A stretch of 64,000 nt of DNA from Antedon mediterranea. Its lineage: Eukaryota > Echinodermata > Crinoidea > Comatulida > Antedonidae. The position numbers were made by a program, and so were the translations under genes. The DNA lies in the NCBI RefSeq assembly GCF_964355755.1, contig NC_092670.1:1823001-1887000 (forward strand), in the 5' to 3' direction. The notes under the pieces were generated by a model. The model saw only the letters and a program-made list of their open reading frames with translations, searched no databases and was not told where the DNA came from. Shown here one piece after another: positions 38,643 through 53,600 of the stretch (position 1 is its first letter; each line of letters starts with the position of its first letter).

Positions 38643-41600
38643 ATGGCGAACAAGGGGCACGTTTTGATTTACTTGTCTGTTATTTTAAAGCTGGCTTTGA
38701 GTCAGAGCGACGACCCAACAAATCCTCATAGAGATCCGTCAAAATGTGAAGGTAAGAAATATTGGAAACAGGCTAATAAATAGTAGTAGGCTAGGGCCTA
38801 GCTAGCAAGCAGTTGTACAACTCTCCATACAGTACCACGCCTGGTGTAGCACAGTACTATTTAGCTTCCAATCTGACTATTCTGTTGATTTTGGATCATT
38901 ACTATGGGCTCTGGCCAAAAGCAATTATAATTATACCTACAATGTACATCTATCTATTTAATTGCACTAGGCCTAGGCTAGGCCTACTACCACCGCCGTG
39001 CAAAGGGCAGGCGCTAATATAAGGATCTGATGTACAGATTTAAATATTGTATATAGTTTATACTGTCACTGCACAGGTAGTTAAATTATTAACAACATAA
39101 AGTGGCCTTATACTTTATTTTAATCTGGTTATTAAAATAGAAAACATAATTTGGTTTCCAGATTTAATGATGAATAATAAATAATGTAATGTTTTAGTTT
39201 GATATTCTGTTTTTTAGATTTTCAATAATTGTTGAAAAATTCATTTCCTGTTTTGCAGTTTGTAAATATGTTGTTGACGAATTAGAGGGTAGCTTATCTG
39301 ACACCTCAAAAACTCATGAGGTTTTAAGAATAGGACACGAGTTTGATAAAGAAGCTAAAGAAATAAAGTACAGGCATTCGTAAGTACATTAACTATTTTT
39401 AGGGATGCTTCTATATATAGATTAATTAATTTAGTTTCAGCAATTTACTCTATAACCAAATTTTGGAGTCCCCTTACACATGAAATACATGTGATAAATA
39501 AAACAGTAAATACAGAAATGTCTGGCTTACAACTTTGAGGCATAATACATTATTAAATGCATACAAATCAATAAAGGAAATGAATAATGGATCCATTTTA
39601 TATACGAATAATGCATTTAATTATACATACAACATTAACCAATGATTGTTGTCTCAGCAAGAATTAATATGAGTACTGCATATATCTTAATGAATAATGC
39701 ATACATGTTAATGAGTACTACTGTATTAATAATACATACATGTTAATGAGTACTATGAACAATGCATGAACCAAGTACAGAGAAATATAATCACAAATTT
39801 AAGCTCAATTTCACAACAAGAAAGTATTACTTTAGATTCCTATGGAAAGCCAAACCCGCCAAAAATACATAATACATACCATCCACCAATAATTAATTCG
39901 TACAAAATTCAAACCATCCAATATTATCTCATGCAGTTCAATGAAAACTTAAACCATTCACCTAGTATCTACACCATCCAATATAATGTGTGACCATCTA
40001 TCACTAGCCCAAACGACAATACGCCGAACAAACTACCCATAACACAAACCATCTAAAGAATGTTGAGCCCAGGCAGCAATAATTGAATTAATCTAACGTT
40101 AATACAAGTATATATTAGTCAACTCATTTATCAACATTTCATGTAGTTCATGAACATTTCAAACAAAGCATCTTAATTATAGTTCATCGAATTATAATTC
40201 TAATACATTGCCTGTTTTATACACCGTTCGTCTGTTCAACAGTTGAAACAACTGTTTTGCACACGATACGCCCGTTCGTGAGTTCAAACCATGATATTTG
40301 AAGCATCGACTTTCCAAACAGCGATTTTTCGCACCGAACGTATTTTCTTGAGTTAAAGTGGTTGCATTTCAATCACTTACTTTTGATTGGCCAGTATTAC
40401 ACACCGTTCGCTTGTTCGTGATTTCAAACCATGATATTTGAAGCATCGACTTTCCAAACGGCGATTTTTCGCACCGAACGTATTTTCTTGAGTTAAAGTG
40501 GTTGCATTTCAATCACCTACTTTCGATTGGCCAGTATTACACACCGTTCGCTTGTTCGTGATTTAATGTGATAACATTTCATTCGACAACTTTTCAAACG
40601 TTAGCTTTTGGCTCCGCTTACGTATATATCAGTTGATATACTATTTTTTAATTTTCATACTTTCCATACATCAGTTTTGTACATCATTCGCATTTACGCA
40701 TGTAAAGTGTAGATATTCCACTCGACAAGTTTTAAAACGGTAGTTTTTGTTTTATTGTTTAATTGTAACTGTTGGCGCCGATTTTATATTGGGGTGGGGG
40801 GGGGGGGGAGGTGTTCGGTACTGAATGTGAACAGTACACATTTTTAAATATGGTACCTCTACATGTCCGGAAATTACACTCTCTCAAAAAAGGGTTTTTT
40901 TTTCCGTAGTGTGTAATATTAAATCAACCACAACCACAACCGTAAGATGAGAACATTTTAGGAACAATGGACATGTTATGCCCTGAAATTGTACTCATTA
41001 AAAATATTCCAGCTAGAATAAAATGTATAGTCCCCTCTCATATTCCCAAAAGTCTTTAACATGGCGTATGTTCCTATTGCTATTGCTTTGCAAGAAATCT
41101 GTCAAACACTTGAACAGTATGTGAATGGTAACATTGATAGAAATCTATTAATGCCACTCCCAATGCGACTGGAGGTTATTATCGAAACGATAATCGGGCA
41201 TGAAAATATCCGGTTAGAGGTAATCGATAATCTTGTAGCGAGTAAAAGAGCGATAGAAGAAGTCATTGGCCCAGGCCAGGTAGGAGACGAACATCCCACT
41301 ACGGACTCTGCCATGATTCACACTGGCAGACCAGGACGGGCAAGATTTGTGATCGGGCGTAGTCAGCTGCAGTTCTTTGTGGGTGCGTATTATTTTTAGG
41401 CCTCCTAGGTTTTGGGCCTAGGCCTATGTATCATTATCTACTTTAATTATTTCTTGTCTTTGGTAAAGTGGCTACCATCGAAGTAAGTAATTCATTCATT
41501 AAATTAAATTCGTGTTTCGGAAGCCATCTTCTTCTTGAAGAGAGTGGCAAACAGTCGTAACCAGCCGAGCCTTAAAAACAATTATTTTTTGTTTTTTACG

Positions 41601-44600
41601 CTCGGCTGATCATGGTTGTTTATCATCTTTGTAAGATAGTAGCACGAACATAGTGTGTTTAATACAAATTTAAAGTAGGCCTAACGACCTTTACTTTTAT
41701 GTGAAACAAATTTTGTAATTTAAATATTAATATATTGCATGACAAAAGGTAGGTAGGTTGCATGATAGGTAGGCCTACTGTATTATTTTTTTTTAAATTA
41801 TTATGAGGCTCTTGCAATAATAAGCATGTAGAGTCTTTTTTCTCTCGAAAATATTACCTTACAGTACAGTACTTTGAATTATTTCTTAGAATTTTCTAGC
41901 CAATATATTATCCAATTCCCATATAACAATTTAGTATTAATAATGAACAAAATTTGGTGTTTTTGTAAACCTAATATTTTACTTTCCGTTCAGTCTTCTC
42001 TCCATAGTCAGTTATTTTCATTTACTTCGTAGACAACAACTTTACTGTTCAGGACATGAGTAAAATGTTTTCTGTAAGTAAAAGAACGATAGAAAGGAGG
42101 CTACAAGAATACAACATGACAACAAGAAACTACACAGATATTTCTTCCGAGTTTCTAGACGCGCGTATTGGCATGATAACCATGAATTTTCCAAGATCAG
42201 GTAGGTATTTAAAATATACAGAATGGCTTGTTTTGTTACGCGACGGACTTTAGAATAGAAGAAGTACTCCTTCGACATGATAAGCATACAAAATAAGGAT
42301 TATTTTTTGAAAGGTTGGGTTAGATACGATGATCGCATCATTTATTGATGGGATGGGATTCTTTCTAAATGATAGAGAGTAGTACCACTGTTTGTAGCGG
42401 TAGCTATTTGCATAGTTTGCTTATTTGTTTTTCTTTATTCATCATTTCATCTTAACACTAGGACTTAAGTCAATTGAGGCTCATTTGATGAAAGACGGCA
42501 TACGAGTACGAAGAGAAGCATTGCGAGATTCTGTCAAAAGGGTTGATCCCGTTGGGCGTCATTTGCGGTCTCTGCGTTGCATACGCAGACGAGTTTATTC
42601 AGTGCCATCTCCGTTGGCTCTGTGGCACATAGACGGGAATCATAAACTAATAAAGTAGGTCTACACGTTTACGATATGTTATGATCAAAACAGATTCGTA
42701 GGCAACCCGACGCAGATATGAAAAATGATAATGTAAATGTAAGAAATTTACATTTTATGATACAATAACATAAAAGTATTTTCAGTTTCCTTTATAATTG
42801 TCGTATGTTTGATTCTACAGATGGAGGTGTGTGATTCATGGAGGTATTGATGGTTATAGTAGAGCGATAGTGTACCTAAAACTCAGTACAAATAACAGGG
42901 CATGCACGGTTCTAACTTGTTTCCAGGAAGCTGTCAGAAAATGGGGATTGCCGTCGAGGGTGAGAGCGGACAAGGGGATCGAAAATGTTGATGTGGCTCG
43001 CTTAATGTTGAACCACCCTTCTAGAGGACCAGGCAGAGGTAGTTTTATTACTGGAAAAAGTGTTCATAACAGCAGGATTGAAAGATTGTGGAGAGATGTA
43101 TTTGAGGCTGTTATATGTTCCTGGCGCACATTCTTTAGCAGTTTGGAAACCATGGGTTGTTTGGACCCAGATAACGAGGCGCATATTTTTATTTTACATT
43201 TCATTTATGTACCCATTATTAATAGTATGTTGATGGATTTCCAACTGATGTGGAACAACCACAAACTGCGGACCGAGCACAACAAAACCCCAAATCAATT
43301 GTTCATAATGGGTATACAAAATATTGCATCCGATGCAAGCATCATAGCGTCTGAGTACTTTGAAGCCATACCAGAGGTAACGTGGAGTTGTATAAATTAA
43401 AGTAATAAATAAAACCTTCATTTTATACGGTATTCTTGGATTTAGAATGTAAGGCGAACGGATGTTCGTATAATTTGTTTGTCGTAACAACTACGTTATT
43501 ATAAACCTGTAACAAAAACTGTTTTAAAAATAGTCTCCCCGACACACACATTATACGTGAGAAACTACTTGTATAGTTAGCCGTTACCGTACACATTTTA
43601 ATTTTACCGTGTCTTGTATGATCTACCTAATCTTCTTTCATTATTTTGGCTTATTGTAGGAAAGTGTTCAGCAGTATGGTATAGATCCAAACTCACCCCT
43701 TCCAGAAGAAAATGATGGTATAGTTGTCCCTGACACTGCCTGTCCAATGAATGATGAACAACTCTCTTTATTTAAGGATGAAATAGACAATGCGCTAAAT
43801 AATGCAGTTGATATTTGGGATGCAACTCCTTATTTACGAGGCTTAGATATTGTTTCTGAATTTTGATGAGTAATAATGACTATTGTGAATGTTTAAAATA
43901 GAAAATTATCATAATGCATATATTAATAATTTGGTTGGCATTTACACTTTAGTATTGGAAATCAGGCTGTGTGAATATCGATTGTTTTGAAAAACAACTT
44001 ATTCTCAAATGAATGTTAATGTTTTTATTAGTTAATTATATTAGGCCTAAAAATATCTGTGTAGATTGGGGATAGAGAGAGAGAGAGCATGTTGCACAAT
44101 TTTACTGATTGGTGTATTTAATGACTGCCTTAATTGTTAATTAACAACAAGTTTCTTTAATTGTTAAAGAAAAACGTTTATTGCCATTAAATTGAAAAGG
44201 TTATTATATGTCCTAAAATCAATACCGTAGTCAACATATGATTTGCTTTAACATTTTTTCTACTGATGTGTAAACTAAATATGTTTGTTGAAAATAATGT
44301 TGTACTTAATGTTTCAAGAACTGCCGACACTAAAATGTTTAGAATCAAATATTATATTTCATTTATTTAGATCTACCCTGTACAGGGGGTTTAAGAACTG
44401 GTATGCCTAATGTTTAAAACGGAAATAATATGAAAACGTATTAGCTCATAACAACCCTTTCAACCATCGCTCATCTTCTTCTGTCATATATCTTTCCGTT
44501 ATGTAAATACAAATTACCACCACTCTTTCTCAACGGTCACCTCCTCTATCCACTCTCCATGTCCTAAATTGAAGCATTATGGATTTTGCTCTGTGATTGA

Positions 44601-47600
44601 ACCAACCCATATCTACAGTAGAAAACTTTATTTAAAGTATGTCACTTGCTTTGTTCTGACCCACTTAGGTCTACACATTACCAAAAAACTGTTGAGAAAA
44701 TGCCAAATCATACATATTGAACAGTGTGTCTTTTGGCGGCAGACTGCATGTTAAACCTGGCCGTGGAAGTTGCATACTGTTAATACACGTGTTGGCAGAC
44801 GGGAGAAAAGAACCTGCTGTTTCTGTAAATACTATTTGTGGATGGAGAACAAAACCCAACACTGGTTCTTCATCCGTTCCGGTCACAAACTGCAACAGAT
44901 GACCAAGCGTCAGGTGACCTCTTCTACCACCTATGAAAAAGAGAGGTAAAAGTCAAAACAAATCAAGTCATAACAAAACCCTTTTAGCCATCGCATCAGT
45001 AAGTGACTTGGCTTAAATGCTTTGAATAGTTTTAACACTGCATGTTCTGATATGAATTAAAAGTAATGAGGTTTAAGAAAATTTGAAAAATGTCGGAGTA
45101 AAGCGAATTTATTTTGGTATGTTACGGTTATTGCTCTTTTTTGCCATTTTAGACACTGTTATTATATGGTTTGCGACGGCAACAACAAATACTTCACTTG
45201 TATAGCGGACACATCCACTACAAGTGTGCTCAATGCAATATTCCTTTATTGTTTGTTTATTGTTTTCCACACATAATAAACTTAAAGTTAAATTGTACTA
45301 AACAAAAAGTGACTTCAGAAATACACATAAATAAAAAAGGGTAAGTGTGTGGAAGCCAAAATAAGCTTGAGAACTTTAGGGCATGGCCACCGGTTAAAAT
45401 AAGGGTTTAAACAAATAATGGATTGCATTATGCTACAGTAGGGCAGAAAAAGGAAAATATACGAACAGACAGTCTGTGTTTTTCTATAACTTATAACTTA
45501 CTAGCAACCTCTCTGACGTAGTCCAGAAATTGGGCATATACAGAACTTTCAAATATCTTAGTGTTTGAGCCATCGCTGCCTTTAAAAGATGGCTTCAACA
45601 ATTCTTTCATCTTTTTTACAGATAATAGTGCTGCAGGGCTGGGTCGAAAAAGATGAACAAATGTTGGTATGTGACAACAAAGCTATAGAAAATAATTAGA
45701 TAAAATGGTAGACAAGTGAATTGAATTTACAATTTTCAGTTGATCATTGAACGCATTACATTATTGTTTCAAGCAGAGATGAAGCATTATAGTGATTGGA
45801 TCTGACGTATGCATATCATTGTGTTTTAGTTACTTATTTAAAGATATGGATCAGAAGCTTAAACTGGCAGTAACTGGTTTTGCGCTCTGTATATGTATAT
45901 TGTAGCAGTACTGTACGACATACCTGATATATCCCCAACTTTGCGAGTCCCTTTCTTAAATTGGTTATGCACTCAGAAGGAGCACTGCTGTTGACGAGTT
46001 CGTCGATAAGGTCACTGTGCATGAATTGTGGCAATTTGCCATTCTGGACGATACTCATAGCTGTTAAAAGATAACCATTTTTAAATACATTAAATCATTA
46101 TAACAGTACCGTACTAGTAAAAAGAAACAAAATAAAACATACGGTATAAGGCTATTAGGAACCAATTTGGTGAAAACAATTGTTGCATTTACACGCCACG
46201 TCACACGTCAAGGAACCTCAAATAGCACCGTGAATCGCGTGATTTTATTGTAAGTAGACATTGAAAACCTACCCATTATTATGCCGATGTAGTAATATTC
46301 CTCGGGAACGTGTTCTTTCATACCGTTATCAAAATAACCATCTTTTATTGCTCTTAAAGCCAACACAAAAAATTCTTTCCTCGGGCCGCCATAATCGGCT
46401 GCTCTCTGTGTGTAAGATATGAAATTACTGTATAGCAACACGGTTAACATCTCATTTTAACTAAAATGCTTTGAATATATTCGATTAGTTTTTACAAATT
46501 CAATTGTTTTTTTTTATTATCATTGTATTTCAAAAGGTTAATTTTATTTATTACAATAAAAATGTATTTAATATACCTCATCATAGAATTGCACTTCCAG
46601 TGTTTTGCGGTAGTCGGCCATATCCCTAATTTCCGAAAAAGCAGTTGCAAGCACATCTTCTCTATTAATCATAATAAAATTTGTTTCCCCTTCGATTACC
46701 TCTGCTTCATCTTCTATCTCTAGTGGTCTTCCTGAAACAATAGCTTTTTGGTAATAACGTAGCACTTCTACAGGATTCCCATTAATGTTGTGGGTATTGC
46801 AGTAATTCACGGTATCTTTGACAATTGTTTCAATAGTAGTAAGAGCAGGTTCTCGTTCGTTACGTTCTGGTTCGTTAACAAACTAAAAATAACAATTATT
46901 TTTGTAAATGATGATACTCATCAAAACCGAAAGCTATAGTACATACTCTTGCAATAATACATAACTTCTATTATAACATAGCTAGGTAGCTTATCTTTTT
47001 CACTGAAATCGCACTATGTTTAGTTTTTTAGTTCTAAAAGTTGTTTATATAATTATATTTAAATAATGAACTAGGAACTAGCTTCACAGACATTGAATGA
47101 GTAGTGCCTACGTACAATGTTTTCAACAATTTCTAAGTCTAAGTTCTGTTCTGTTCTGTTCTGTTCTAAGTTCTCGGAGGCCGGTATTGGTTCGGTGGCC
47201 GGTATTGTTTCGGTGGCCGGTACTTCATGTAGTCCCGGTTCCAGGTCACTGTCTGAACTTGAATCTTCGTTCTGGGGTTCAATAAGAGAAGATAATGTAC
47301 AGTAATATTGCGTGGTCGAGTGAAAAAAAAGTTGTTAGCCTAAATTATGATAGAAATATTCAAATTAAGCATTTTGTTATGTTAAAAATGTATTATACAA
47401 ATCAAATAAAAAAAGGAGAATATTGATAATATCTGAAAACCGGTAATTACCGGCAAGTCCGTATCGGGAAAATTGATTTTCAATTCTCGTTTCTGAAAAC
47501 TGAAACTGATTACCAATACTACTTTCTTCTCTTTCACAGGTAATTACCATGCAATATTTGATGTGCACTTTCATGTTCTTCATGGAAATGTTGGCCCTAC

Positions 47601-50600
47601 AATTTAAACATTTTTCTCGGGCTTCCACTAATGGTATTTCTGCCTCCGGTATATCCCGCTGCAATGGGCGAATGTATAATTTTCCAGAACCAAATGTTCT
47701 AAGGTCTTGAACTTTACATGGCCCGTAATGGACAACAATCAGTTTTTTGCGATCACCTGTTGTTATCTCAAACCCTCCGCAATTTGCAAGCAACGGAAAT
47801 GTTCTACAAAAACAAATTAAAAATAAATATGTAGAATTTTGTTCTCATTTGCAAACTGTCATAAGCATCATCATCATAGTTGATTATTTTCTCTTTAACA
47901 AACAGTATTTTGGCAAAATCACCACAGAAAACATTTCGATGTGAAAACATTAGAAAAATTATCTTACTTAAATACCAGGTTGCAAAAATCGTCTTGATTG
48001 CCTTCCGCTGGAAACACAATTTTCTTCTCGCCATAGCCGTTATCTTTCAGTTTTCGACGTTGGGCTACAGTAGGAACAGTTTCCATTTTGTGTTCCATGA
48101 GGCATACTAAAAATCTTGTCAATGTTCTTCCTAAAAAAGGATAAAATATCTTATAAAAACCATCTTTTATTAATAATCATTTCGGTCAATTAAGAAGATA
48201 AGACCTCCTTGTATTATTATTAGGCATGTTTTTTGGTTAAATAGCAAATTTTGTTACATGGGCTAATTGTTGGAGGTTAGCAAATATACAGATATGTTAG
48301 GAAATACATAACATCGTTATTCTTTTTATTATATGTTTAATAAAACTGTTAACATTTCAACTTTATATAAAAAACATACACCAATAAACCTGATTGGCAG
48401 TATTATCCGAACTCAACTATAACATGACGTAATAACTGTACCGACCTAAATACATTACACACGACAGCTTCTAAACTCTCATTGTGAAAATACAATTAAA
48501 ATTGATGCGATAAAACAATTAGCATCGTACCTTTTCCAGATGGTTTACTACTGGTACTGTTGTTGCTATGACCCCTGTTATATGGGGTTTGTCTCTGAAA
48601 TAATATTATATGTACACAGTGATAAAAACTCGTTCAAAATGTTAATTTTACTTGTAATACAAAAAATATATGATGTTTTACTGAACGGCCAGGTAAGTCT
48701 CCAACAAAATTAATAAAAATGTGATGGACAACATGTTAAAATGTGGCACCATTGTATTGAAAATTATTTAAACTGGATTGGTACAGGCGCGGAGCCACTT
48801 AATAAGCTATCTATCGGTACAATAGTAAACGATTCGGGTGCCAAGAAGAAGGGGGTTTAGTAACATGATGCAACTTACATAATTTCGATTGAACAGTCGT
48901 CTGTGTTCACTCGCAATACTTTGGTCTCTGCTAGGCGTACTGCTGGTGCTAGCACTGGAACTCAACGTAGATCTACTACTAGGCCTACTAGTACTAGCAG
49001 CATGACTAGTGGTTGTAGTAGTACTAAGCTCACTACTACTATTGGAAATGGTAGCAGACGAAGGAGTGTTTGTGATAGAATTTGCTAACCCCTGCAGCAC
49101 CTGCAAAACACTACGTAAATCATCTGACATACTGGATGATACCTGAAACGAATGAGTCCATACAACTTGTATTTACACTTTTTCACAATTTCACGTTAAT
49201 TTATCACATTTTAAGTTTATATACTAGAAAATCAATATTATTCCTAGAGCCTAGTAGGCCTATATGGTTTAGAGCTATTTGGCAAAATAAAAAATAATTG
49301 TTCAGTGGTAGGCTTCTGTACTATTATTATTATTAATAAATACAACCATTGATTAAAATATCGGTCTACGCACAATCGGAGGTTTATATATAATTTAATA
49401 TAAGTATGTGTAATAATAATAATATTATATTATAGGCCTAGCTAGGGCCTGGCCTAGCTGGATAATTCCTATAATTAGTAATTTCAGCTACAAAATCCAG
49501 GTTCCAATCCTGGTCACCACTCATGGCACTAATTGTAGCTTTTTATAAAATAATGATAATAATTCCAATATTAATAATTATTAGGCCTATGCCTAGTATT
49601 AGTATTGTAAGTAGGCCTAGGGCCTATATCATGCCTAGCCTGCTAGGCCTATCTAGGCCTATACAGAAAAGTATAACAATAACTTAAACCATCATCAATT
49701 TCACCTACAAAATCGATAAAACACAGAATTTAAAATAATAATAATAATAAAACAGGAAAACACTATTAAACATTATTATATTTATTTATCTACCTATCAT
49801 CAGTATACGTACGGTACGTACCTTTTTGGTCTTCCTGAGCTGAATCAATTCAAAAATCAGCATCAATGTGTGAAAAATGACGAACTACGCAGTTGAATAG
49901 CCCCCCATCCATAACAGCGTTGGGTTATTTAATGCATGATGAATAACAAATAATTATGATTTAATAACAAATACACATGTTTTTATTTAATCCATGATAA
50001 ATATTCGTAAAATATGTTTATTCGGATATTTATTAATTACGTCTCCACTATAGTCTATAAAACATAATGAATGTCATTATTTCAAAAAAAATAGGCCTAC
50101 CCCGTAAACAAATGGAAGCTTCTCAACAACAGTTAATTTATGCATCATATAGAGAGCACAGAGCAGAAAATGGCTCTAGGCCGGCCTCATCCTAGCAGCC
50201 GCCGCACAGGGGGAGAGAGAAGCACAACACCAGCTCTCTCTCTCTCCCCTGTCTCTCCCCCACAGGCGGGTGAGGTGGGTGTTACCCCGGGCCTAGTTGT
50301 GGGGCGTAAAATTGTAACAGGCCCACAAGCTAAATTATATTATTTCATTCTGGTTTTTTTTTCATTATTTAAGTTTGTGATAATGTGTGTAACCAGGGAG
50401 ATGTAAAATAAATTTATAAATTAGTTTACATCTCCCTGACCTGTGTGTGTAACGTAGGCCTAAGTAAGTGTCATACAGTCGTATTAGTTGACATTCACCC
50501 CCCGCCCCTCAATATTAAATCGGCGCCAACAGTTACAATTTAACAATAAAACAATAAATGTGCGAACAACTACCGTTTAAAACTTGTCGAGTGGAATATC

Positions 50601-53600
50601 TACACTTTACATGCGTAAATGCGAATGATGTACAAAACTGACTATGGAAAGTATGAAAATTAAAAATTAGTATATCAACTGATATATACGTAAGCGGAGC
50701 CAAAAGCTAACGTTTGAAAAGTTGTCGAATGAAATGTTATCACATTAAATCACGAACAAGCGAACGGTGTGTAATACTGGCCAATCGAAAGTAGGTGATT
50801 GAAATGCAACCACTTTAACTCAAGAAAATACGTTCGGTGCGAAAAATCGCCGTTTGGAAAGTCGATGCTTCAAATATCATGGTTTGAAATCACGAACAAG
50901 CGAACGGTGTGTAATACTGGCCAATCAAAAGTAAGTGATTGAAATGCAACCACTTTAACTCAAGAAAATACGTTCGGTGCGAAAAATCGCTGTTTGGAAA
51001 GTCGATGCTTCAAATATCATGGTTTGAACTCACGAACGGGCGTATCGTGTGCAAAACAGTTGTTTCAACTGTTGAACAGACGAACGGTGTATAAAACAGG
51101 CAATGAATTAGAATTATAATTCGATGAACTATAATTAAGATGCTTTGTTTGAAATGTTCATGAACTACATGAAATGTTGATAAATGAGTTGACTAATATA
51201 TACTTGTATTAACGTTAGATTAATTCAATTATTGCTGCCTGGGCTCAACATTCTTTAGATGGTTTGTGTTATGGGTAGTTTGTTCGGCGTATTGTCGTTT
51301 GGGCTAGTGGTAGATGGTCACACATTATATTGGATGGTGTAGATACTAGGTGAATGGTTTAAGTTTTCATTGAACTGCATGAGATAATATTGGATGGTTT
51401 AAATTTTGTACGAATTAATTATTGGTGGATGGTATGTATTATGTATTTTTGGCGGGTTTGGCTTTCCATAGATTCCTCCATAAACTATATAATACAACGA
51501 TTGTAGGAGCAATAGGAACTAGAACTATTCCTCCATAAACTATATAATACAACGATTGTAGGAGCAGTAGGAACTAGAACTATTCCTCCATAAACTATAT
51601 AATACAACGATTGTAGGAGCAATAGGAACTAGAACTATTCCTCCATAAACTATATAATACAACGATTGTACAGTAGGAGCAATAGGAACTAGAACTATTC
51701 CTCCATAAACTATATAATACAACGATTGTAGGAGCAATAGGAACTAGAACTATTCCTCCATAAACTATATAATACAACGATTGTAGGAGCAATAGGAACT
51801 AGAACTATTCCTCCATAAACTATATAATACAACGATTGTAGGAGCAATAGGAACTAGAACTATTCCTCCATAAACTATATAATACAACGATTGTAGGAGC
51901 AATAGGAACTAGAACTATTCCTCCATAAACTATATAATACAACGATTGTACAGTAGGAGCAATAGGAACTAGAACTATTCCTCCATAAACTATATAATAC
52001 AACGATTGTACAGTAGGAGCAATAGGAACTAGAACTATTCCTCCATAAACTATATACTACAACGATTGTAGGAGCAATAGGAACTAGAACTATTCCTCCA
52101 TAAACTATATACTACAACGATTGTAGGAGCAGTAGGAACTAGAACTATTCCTCCATAAACTATATAATACAACGATTGTAGGAGCAATAGGAACTAGAAC
52201 TATTCCTCCATAAACTATATACTACAACGATTGTAGGAGCAATAGGAACTAGAACTATTCCTCCATAAACTATATAATACAACGATTGTAGGAGCAATAG
52301 GAACTAGAACTATTCCTCCATAAACTATATAATACAACGATTGTAGGAGCAATAGGAACTAGAACTATTCTAGAATATGACAAATACTGTGTCTACTGTA
52401 ATTCGTAATTATAGCTTAAATCGTTTTTATTTTACAGTGAAACCAGACTGATAGATGTGCTGGAACAAGTTTGTGAAAGAATATTGAAGTATAACATCCA
52501 TGCTGAAAGAGAGGCAAGCCGAAGGTATTTAACTGGTTTTGTGGTTAAGGTACCCGATGTCTTTATTGGTTCTGGTACCCGATGTCTTTGTTGGTTCTAA
52601 GTTCAACAATTCTGATGTTCAATTTTGTTTTTTTCAAAACGTTTCAGGTTTGCAAAAGGAACCGCTGAAACAATGCAGACGCTGATGAACTTACGAGATA
52701 AAGGGGTCAAAGTTGAACTTGGAATACCAGATAACATGTGGGAAGTACCAGGTGCTCCCATATATAAAATGAAACAATACGTAAGTATCTCACGTTATCA
52801 GTTAATTACGCACCATATGATAAGTTAATTATATTTACAGTCCGTGTAAGAATGAACTGATGGAAAATGCTAAAATCTTATCCAGGGAGGTTTTATACCT
52901 TCATCATATTCATGAATTTTGTCATATTATTAATTATTAATAATAAGAATACAGTCGAAGTTAACATACAGCCTAGAGGTTGAGGGCATTGAGGCATGTC
53001 TTCATCACCTATACGGTGCATGGCCTCATTTGGGTATACCATAGTCTTCTTATGATAGCCTAAATTTATTTAACAGTTGAAAGAGTGACAATAAAATACT
53101 GTAATACTTTGCTCATTTTTTTCTAGTGTGATTCACTAATTGAGCAATATGAAGATGTGATAAATGATTGGTATTTTGCCGAACCAGATGAAAGGACTGA
53201 CCTAACAAACCTTCTGTGTCTAGATAACTACCTAGCTAAGGGTGACCAAGGTAATATAAAGAACTGACCTAACAAACCTTCTATGTGGCAGTGATATGGG
53301 TAGTGACATCATCATGTCCATATATGGGCACATCATATTTTATTGTCACATAGAGACAAGTTTGATAGTGTAAGCAGAGCTTAAATTATTGAAACTTTTT
53401 TTTTATTCCCAAGAGTGTTTAAAGGAAGTTTGGACCGGTAAAGAGCGAGTGGACTTTGATGGTGACCAAGAAGATGAGGAGAAACAAGAGAAAAAAAAAA
53501 AAACAGGCAAAAAACGTAAGAAAAACAACACGCAGGATGGTGAAAAGAAGAAAAAGGCAAAAAAAGGCATTCATTTGAATTCAGAAAATATCCACTCAAC

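Follow-up and report, generated by a model that had tools for sequence, protein, structure and literature searches.

The transposon and its two genes

The window, i.e., the whole stretch of 64,000 nucleotides of Antedon mediterranea DNA that was analysed (G000:C1:1823001-1887000), belongs to a genome of which 354 Mb in 18 contigs were searched. It holds a bounded element of 11,630 bp (39841-51470) with terminal inverted repeats (TIRs) and a target site duplication (TSD). The left TIR (39841..40803, plus strand, about 0.96 kb) starts TATGGAAAGCC and the right one (50498..51470, minus strand) ends GGCTTTCCATA, so that the termini read TATGG..CCATA, and the 6-bp duplication GATTCC, to which no strand is assigned, stands on either side (39835..39840 and 51471..51476). 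The two arms are 100% complementary over 829 bp and can be aligned over about 970 bp at 97.5%; arms of this kind cannot arise by chance. The boundaries, the repeats of about 960 bp and the target duplication proposed in a sequence-only reading of the window are all present as claimed. Inside each TIR there are direct repeats of about 70/140 bp (40254-40603; 50695-51057), which are candidate transposase-binding arrays. A 55-bp minisatellite array (51477-52472) starts exactly at the right target duplication, the element having been inserted at the edge of the array.

The transposase gene (41061..43866, plus strand) consists of five exons (41061-41382, 42033-42200, 42462-42654, 42821-43376, 43660-43866) and encodes a protein of 481 aa with a helix-turn-helix (HTH) and an rva_4/rve catalytic core. 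The core matches the Pfam family rva_4 with an E value of 6e-69, the rve match being weaker, and its triad is formed by D221, D278 and E315, with 36 residues separating the second aspartate from the glutamate (DD36E). A five-exon transposase with a full DDE triad had already been read from the sequence, and the present model agrees.

Convergent to it lies the gene of a HECT E3 ubiquitin ligase (44671..49130, minus strand), with nine exons (49130-48879, 48149-47968, 47803-47451, 47252-47116, 46882-46577, 46405-46273, 46060-45924, 45682-45502, 44930-44671) and a product of 646 aa; its splice sites were predicted from the sequence and from relatives, exons 1-2 and 4 being the least certain. A minus-strand HECT gene had been called before and is real, with 10 exons and 665 residues in the earlier model as against the 9 exons and 646 residues of the present one. 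The protein has a Ser/Thr-rich start, followed by a CCHC zinc finger (C-x2-C-x11-H-x3-C, residues 210-229, encoded by the exon at 47451..47803, minus strand) and by a HECT region of about 300 aa from residue 344. The spacing of the finger resembles, by eye, that of UBZ4 ubiquitin-binding fingers, with a Pfam match that is marginal only. The last exon (44671..44930, minus strand) encodes the C-lobe, with the catalytic Cys609 and a phenylalanine at position -4 from the C-terminus.

The HECT region of the window protein matches PF00632 (E 5.5e-10, 39.8 bits with a cut-off of 23.9) and Cys609 lies in a TCxN motif, which bears out the HECT-like domain with a TC-x-N catalytic cysteine that had been noticed earlier. 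The Pfam HECT model is matched by all nine aligned HECT domains (window and relatives); at identities of 15-40%, only 8 columns are invariant across them, and the catalytic cysteine is one of these. The phenylalanine at -4, found in the window protein, is present in 7 of the 10 families checked. In sequence profile comparisons the HECT profile matches the solved domains of AREL1, E6AP, Rsp5 and HUWE1 across both lobes. Single-sequence AlphaFold models of two single window exons were poor (pLDDT 32 and 40, the latter for the C-lobe), so the assignment of a HECT fold rests on the profile matches. From the conserved catalytic residues we infer that the window ligase is a catalytically competent HECT E3. 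It shares with AREL1, E6AP, Rsp5/NEDD4 and HUWE1 the N- and C-lobe motifs, the cysteine in TCxN and the phenylalanine at -4; unlike them, it is encoded by a transposon, its HECT region is of about 300 aa and its N-terminal part is different (Ser-rich with a CCHC finger, or with a SAM domain in a relative). It is not of the G2E3-like type named in the sequence-only reading, which is marked by PHD/RING fingers and a degenerate HECT: neither PHD nor RING was found in Pfam scans of the tested exons, and the protein instead combines a CCHC finger with a catalytic cysteine of the normal kind.

Assignment to IS3EU and recent movement

The IS3EU superfamily is defined by TA..TA ends and 6-bp TSDs (PMC10045372), the ends of fungal members being TAYGG..CCRTA (PMC12730594). 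The window element ends in TATGG..CCATA and a second bounded element of the same genome (L021) in TACGG..CCGTA; TSDs of 6 bp were found in six insertions (GATTCC, CATATA, CGCCAG, TATAAT, CTTGAA and AATATC), and the rva_4 match and triad place the transposase among the integrase-type DDE enzymes of the IS3/IS481-like kind. The window element is like IS3EU as described in its ends, its TSD, the HTH upstream of the core and an integrase-like DDE core without an HHCC finger, whereas the HECT ligase gene is absent from the cited IS3EU descriptions. By its ends, TSD length and transposase it belongs to IS3EU; it is a young, complete and recently active cut-and-paste transposon.

When the genome was searched with the transposase, its core was recovered with 100% identity on C1, C4 and C5, in all three cases beside a HECT exon. 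The C4 and C5 copies are, like that of the window, near full length. The C4 copy has the TSD CATATA and a 1.5-kb insertion, with 99.7% identity elsewhere, and its transposase and HECT proteins are both 100% identical to those of the window; in the C5 copy (TSD CGCCAG) the transposase is likewise identical, but the HECT gene has been shortened by an internal deletion. The TIRs of the family were found at no fewer than 40 places, at least, in the genome. Three short derivatives examined are about 2.5 kb long, lack both genes and have a common internal junction at element positions 1023/10074, with clear TSDs in two of the three (TATAAT, CTTGAA). The near-identical copies and the short derivatives with TSDs indicate recent movement of the family, whose transposase probably mobilises the derivatives in trans. 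As to whether the ligase always travels with the transposase among copies with the same TIRs, a check that had been proposed earlier, the C4 copy keeps both genes, the C5 copy has lost part of the HECT gene and the 2.5-kb derivatives have neither.

Transposase and HECT pairs across the genome

The pairing was followed genome-wide by Pfam scans for HECT and rva_4 and by protein searches with two divergent HECTs. A HECT place was found at 10 kb or less from 42 of the 63 IS3EU transposase places, with 0.22 expected by chance. Some of the HECT places in this tally were retrieved with queries that themselves came from IS3EU loci; when only the Pfam HECT scan, which is free of this bias, is counted, 21 HECT places are still no more than about 7 kb away from a transposase. 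The pairs belong to about 10 divergent families and are mostly convergent, the exceptions being C5:18.78M (divergent), C6:14.56M (tandem) and pairs beside duplicated transposases. The second bounded element (L021 349-7013) has TIRs, the TSD AATATC and a very distant HECT protein of 685 aa, which is unreported by Pfam and joins the other HECTs by profile comparison (E 9e-15). No recognisable HECT was found within 6 kb in two groups of IS3EU-like transposases (L020, L031). A lack of the ligase from most other copies, named beforehand as what would speak against a true pairing, was not encountered across families.

In another family (L013) one HECT deletion junction is common to eight copies on seven contigs (C1:3.07M, C3:3.62M, C3:15.56M, C4:14.15M, C8:21.80M, C9:13.28M, C10:12.70M and C11:14.15M, L019 included), most of them with an open transposase frame, and the HECT gene is intact in two copies. 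Since this HECT-deleted derivative was amplified, and since the C5 copy of the window family lost part of its HECT gene, an element does not require the ligase in cis; the ligase of IS3EU elements may be dispensable or may work in trans. The proposal that the ligase is cargo of the element stands with this qualification, the pairing being found in about 10 families.

Between families, both genes show saturated synonymous divergence (pS 0.72-0.88) as against pN of 0.27-0.49, and the conservation of the proteins over saturated synonymous sites points to long-term purifying selection on ligase and transposase. With their intact frames, this is what had been expected of two genes under selection. 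The ligase diverges faster, with 37% identity between the window and C2:12.76M families compared with 56% for the transposase. Estimates of dN/dS within families were discarded, for the window family because the copies are too young (the C4 proteins are identical), and for the L011 family because internal deletions and the misalignment of dead copies distort the values (omega 0.7-0.9). HECT and transposase distances showed no significant correlation (Mantel r 0.17, p 0.17), so that strict co-inheritance is not claimed; on these distances, it is possible that HECT genes were exchanged between elements.

In the divergent C5:18.78M pair (L008:1228-1848, L008:3860-5302) the ligase and the transposase both start with a SAM domain. 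That of the ligase is found by Pfam (E 7.6e-5; 5.6e-6 for a fragment), and that of the transposase is marginal in Pfam and 36% identical to the ligase SAM in BLASTP. SAM domains often bind one another, and the presence of homologous ones suggests that the ligase and transposase of the C5:18.78M family may touch. The SAM domain was found in this family only, and none was seen in the two proteins of the window element.

Some loci depart from this picture. At L009 (G000:C9:22690000-22699999) there is a HECT gene related to that of C5:18.78M with an altered C-terminus, which is a relic or a possible domesticated gene; no transposase was found nearby. At L012, and at C6:31.605-31.616M, C1:26.566-26.570M and C4:20.155-20.159M, two transposase copies in inverted orientation flank HECT exons, a layout that looks as if the inverted repeats had grown to take in the transposase. 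In viral contigs, searches with HECT and transposase queries found no relative, the matches being three weak ones of 40 residues.

The role of the ligase

We consider it probable that the window element is an IS3EU transposon that encodes a conserved accessory HECT E3 ligase in its second, convergent gene. Because the pairing recurs in about 10 very different families, the ligase seems to be a durable functional component of IS3EU elements in the A. mediterranea genome and not a chance passenger. In the mechanism that we propose, the ligase would be expressed and would charge ubiquitin on Cys609; it would work in trans next to the transposase, where the shared SAM domain would keep it in at least one family. 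The substrate that it ubiquitinates would be the transposase complex, or else a protein of chromatin or of silencing present where the element inserts. This ubiquitination would set the level of the transposase or the disassembly of its complex, or else remove a host restriction factor. In either case the ligase could tune transposase stability or host defence, as the sequence-only reading had it, and the transposase complex and a host defence protein are weighed about equally as its target.

If the target is the transposase or the strand-transfer complex, the ligase would limit its level or aid disassembly after insertion. The adjoining position of the two genes within one element and the homologous N-terminal SAM domains of the C5:18.78M pair, which suggest direct binding, argue for this, against which stands the absence of a visible SAM domain from the two proteins of the window element; we regard it as a serious possibility that falls short of being probable. 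If the ligase instead degrades a silencing or restriction protein in trans, ligase-less copies would profit from intact ones, in keeping with the spread of HECT-deleted copies and the persistence of intact ones. A changing host target would also be expected to make the ligase evolve faster than the transposase, as it does, but weaker constraint fits the faster divergence too. For fungal IS3EU, the TET/JBP genes have been proposed to undo methylation silencing (PMC12730594), a further point in favour of an action against the host, which we hold possible and put forward tentatively. Equally tentative is the most specific form of the proposal, in which a dedicated HECT ligase would dock on the transposase (SAM-SAM, in one family) and control transposition through ubiquitin placed on the transpososome or on a host protein at the target site, and would have reached very divergent families by inheritance or by exchange.

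It is unlikely that IS3EU elements merely captured host HECT genes, which drift along without benefit. The transposition of HECT-deleted derivatives, the two IS3EU groups in which no HECT was detected and the lack of clear congruence between HECT and transposase trees would agree with such passengers, but the same convergent layout recurs in about 10 families, the catalytic cysteine is invariant at 15-40% identity and purifying selection is strong despite saturated synonymous divergence. The view that this is a host gene which lies by chance in or next to the inserted element, conceivable given the many cellular HECT genes of host genomes, is refuted by three copies with HECT between the TIRs on three chromosomes with different TSDs, and is opposed as well by the HECT gene inside the bounded element of the unrelated second family and by the 42 close pairs seen against 0.22 expected.

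IS3EU elements, HECT ligases and the occurrence of accessory enzymes in IS3EU are already known. The RAG1/RAG2 (ProtoRAG) transposon also combines a transposase with a convergent accessory gene, and RAG1 carries a RING E3 domain; the convergent accessory gene is common to ProtoRAG and the window element, whereas transposase class and E3 type are unrelated. Closer are fungal IS3EU, which carry alpha-kinase and TET/JBP genes, the TET/JBP gene, where present, lying between the transposase and the oppositely oriented alpha-kinase gene (PMC12730594). They are like the window element in their TAYGG..CCRTA ends, 6-bp TSD and second enzyme gene in opposite orientation, and differ from it in that the second enzyme is a kinase (with a DNA dioxygenase) in fungi and a HECT ligase in this animal (PMC12730594). 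Styx of Zymoseptoria, in the parts of its description consulted, has likewise an IS3EU-related integrase, a 6-bp TSD and a large size with extra coding sequences, but is fungal and has no HECT gene reported in those parts, whereas the window element has one (PMC10853768). The IS3EU-HECT pairing was not found in the literature searched, which left out Repbase Reports and most subscription papers. To our knowledge, ubiquitin-system enzymes are rarely carried by transposons.

The pairing, repeated and under selection, offers a testable case of an element using ubiquitination to control its transposase or to disarm its host, and suggests a possible source of the orphan HECT genes of animal genomes. 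Together with the kinase-bearing fungal elements, it points to a possible rule by which IS3EU pair their transposase with a protein-modifying enzyme. If the ligase does dock on the transposase and control transposition in this way, the window element and its relatives would be DNA transposons with their own built-in ubiquitin switch.
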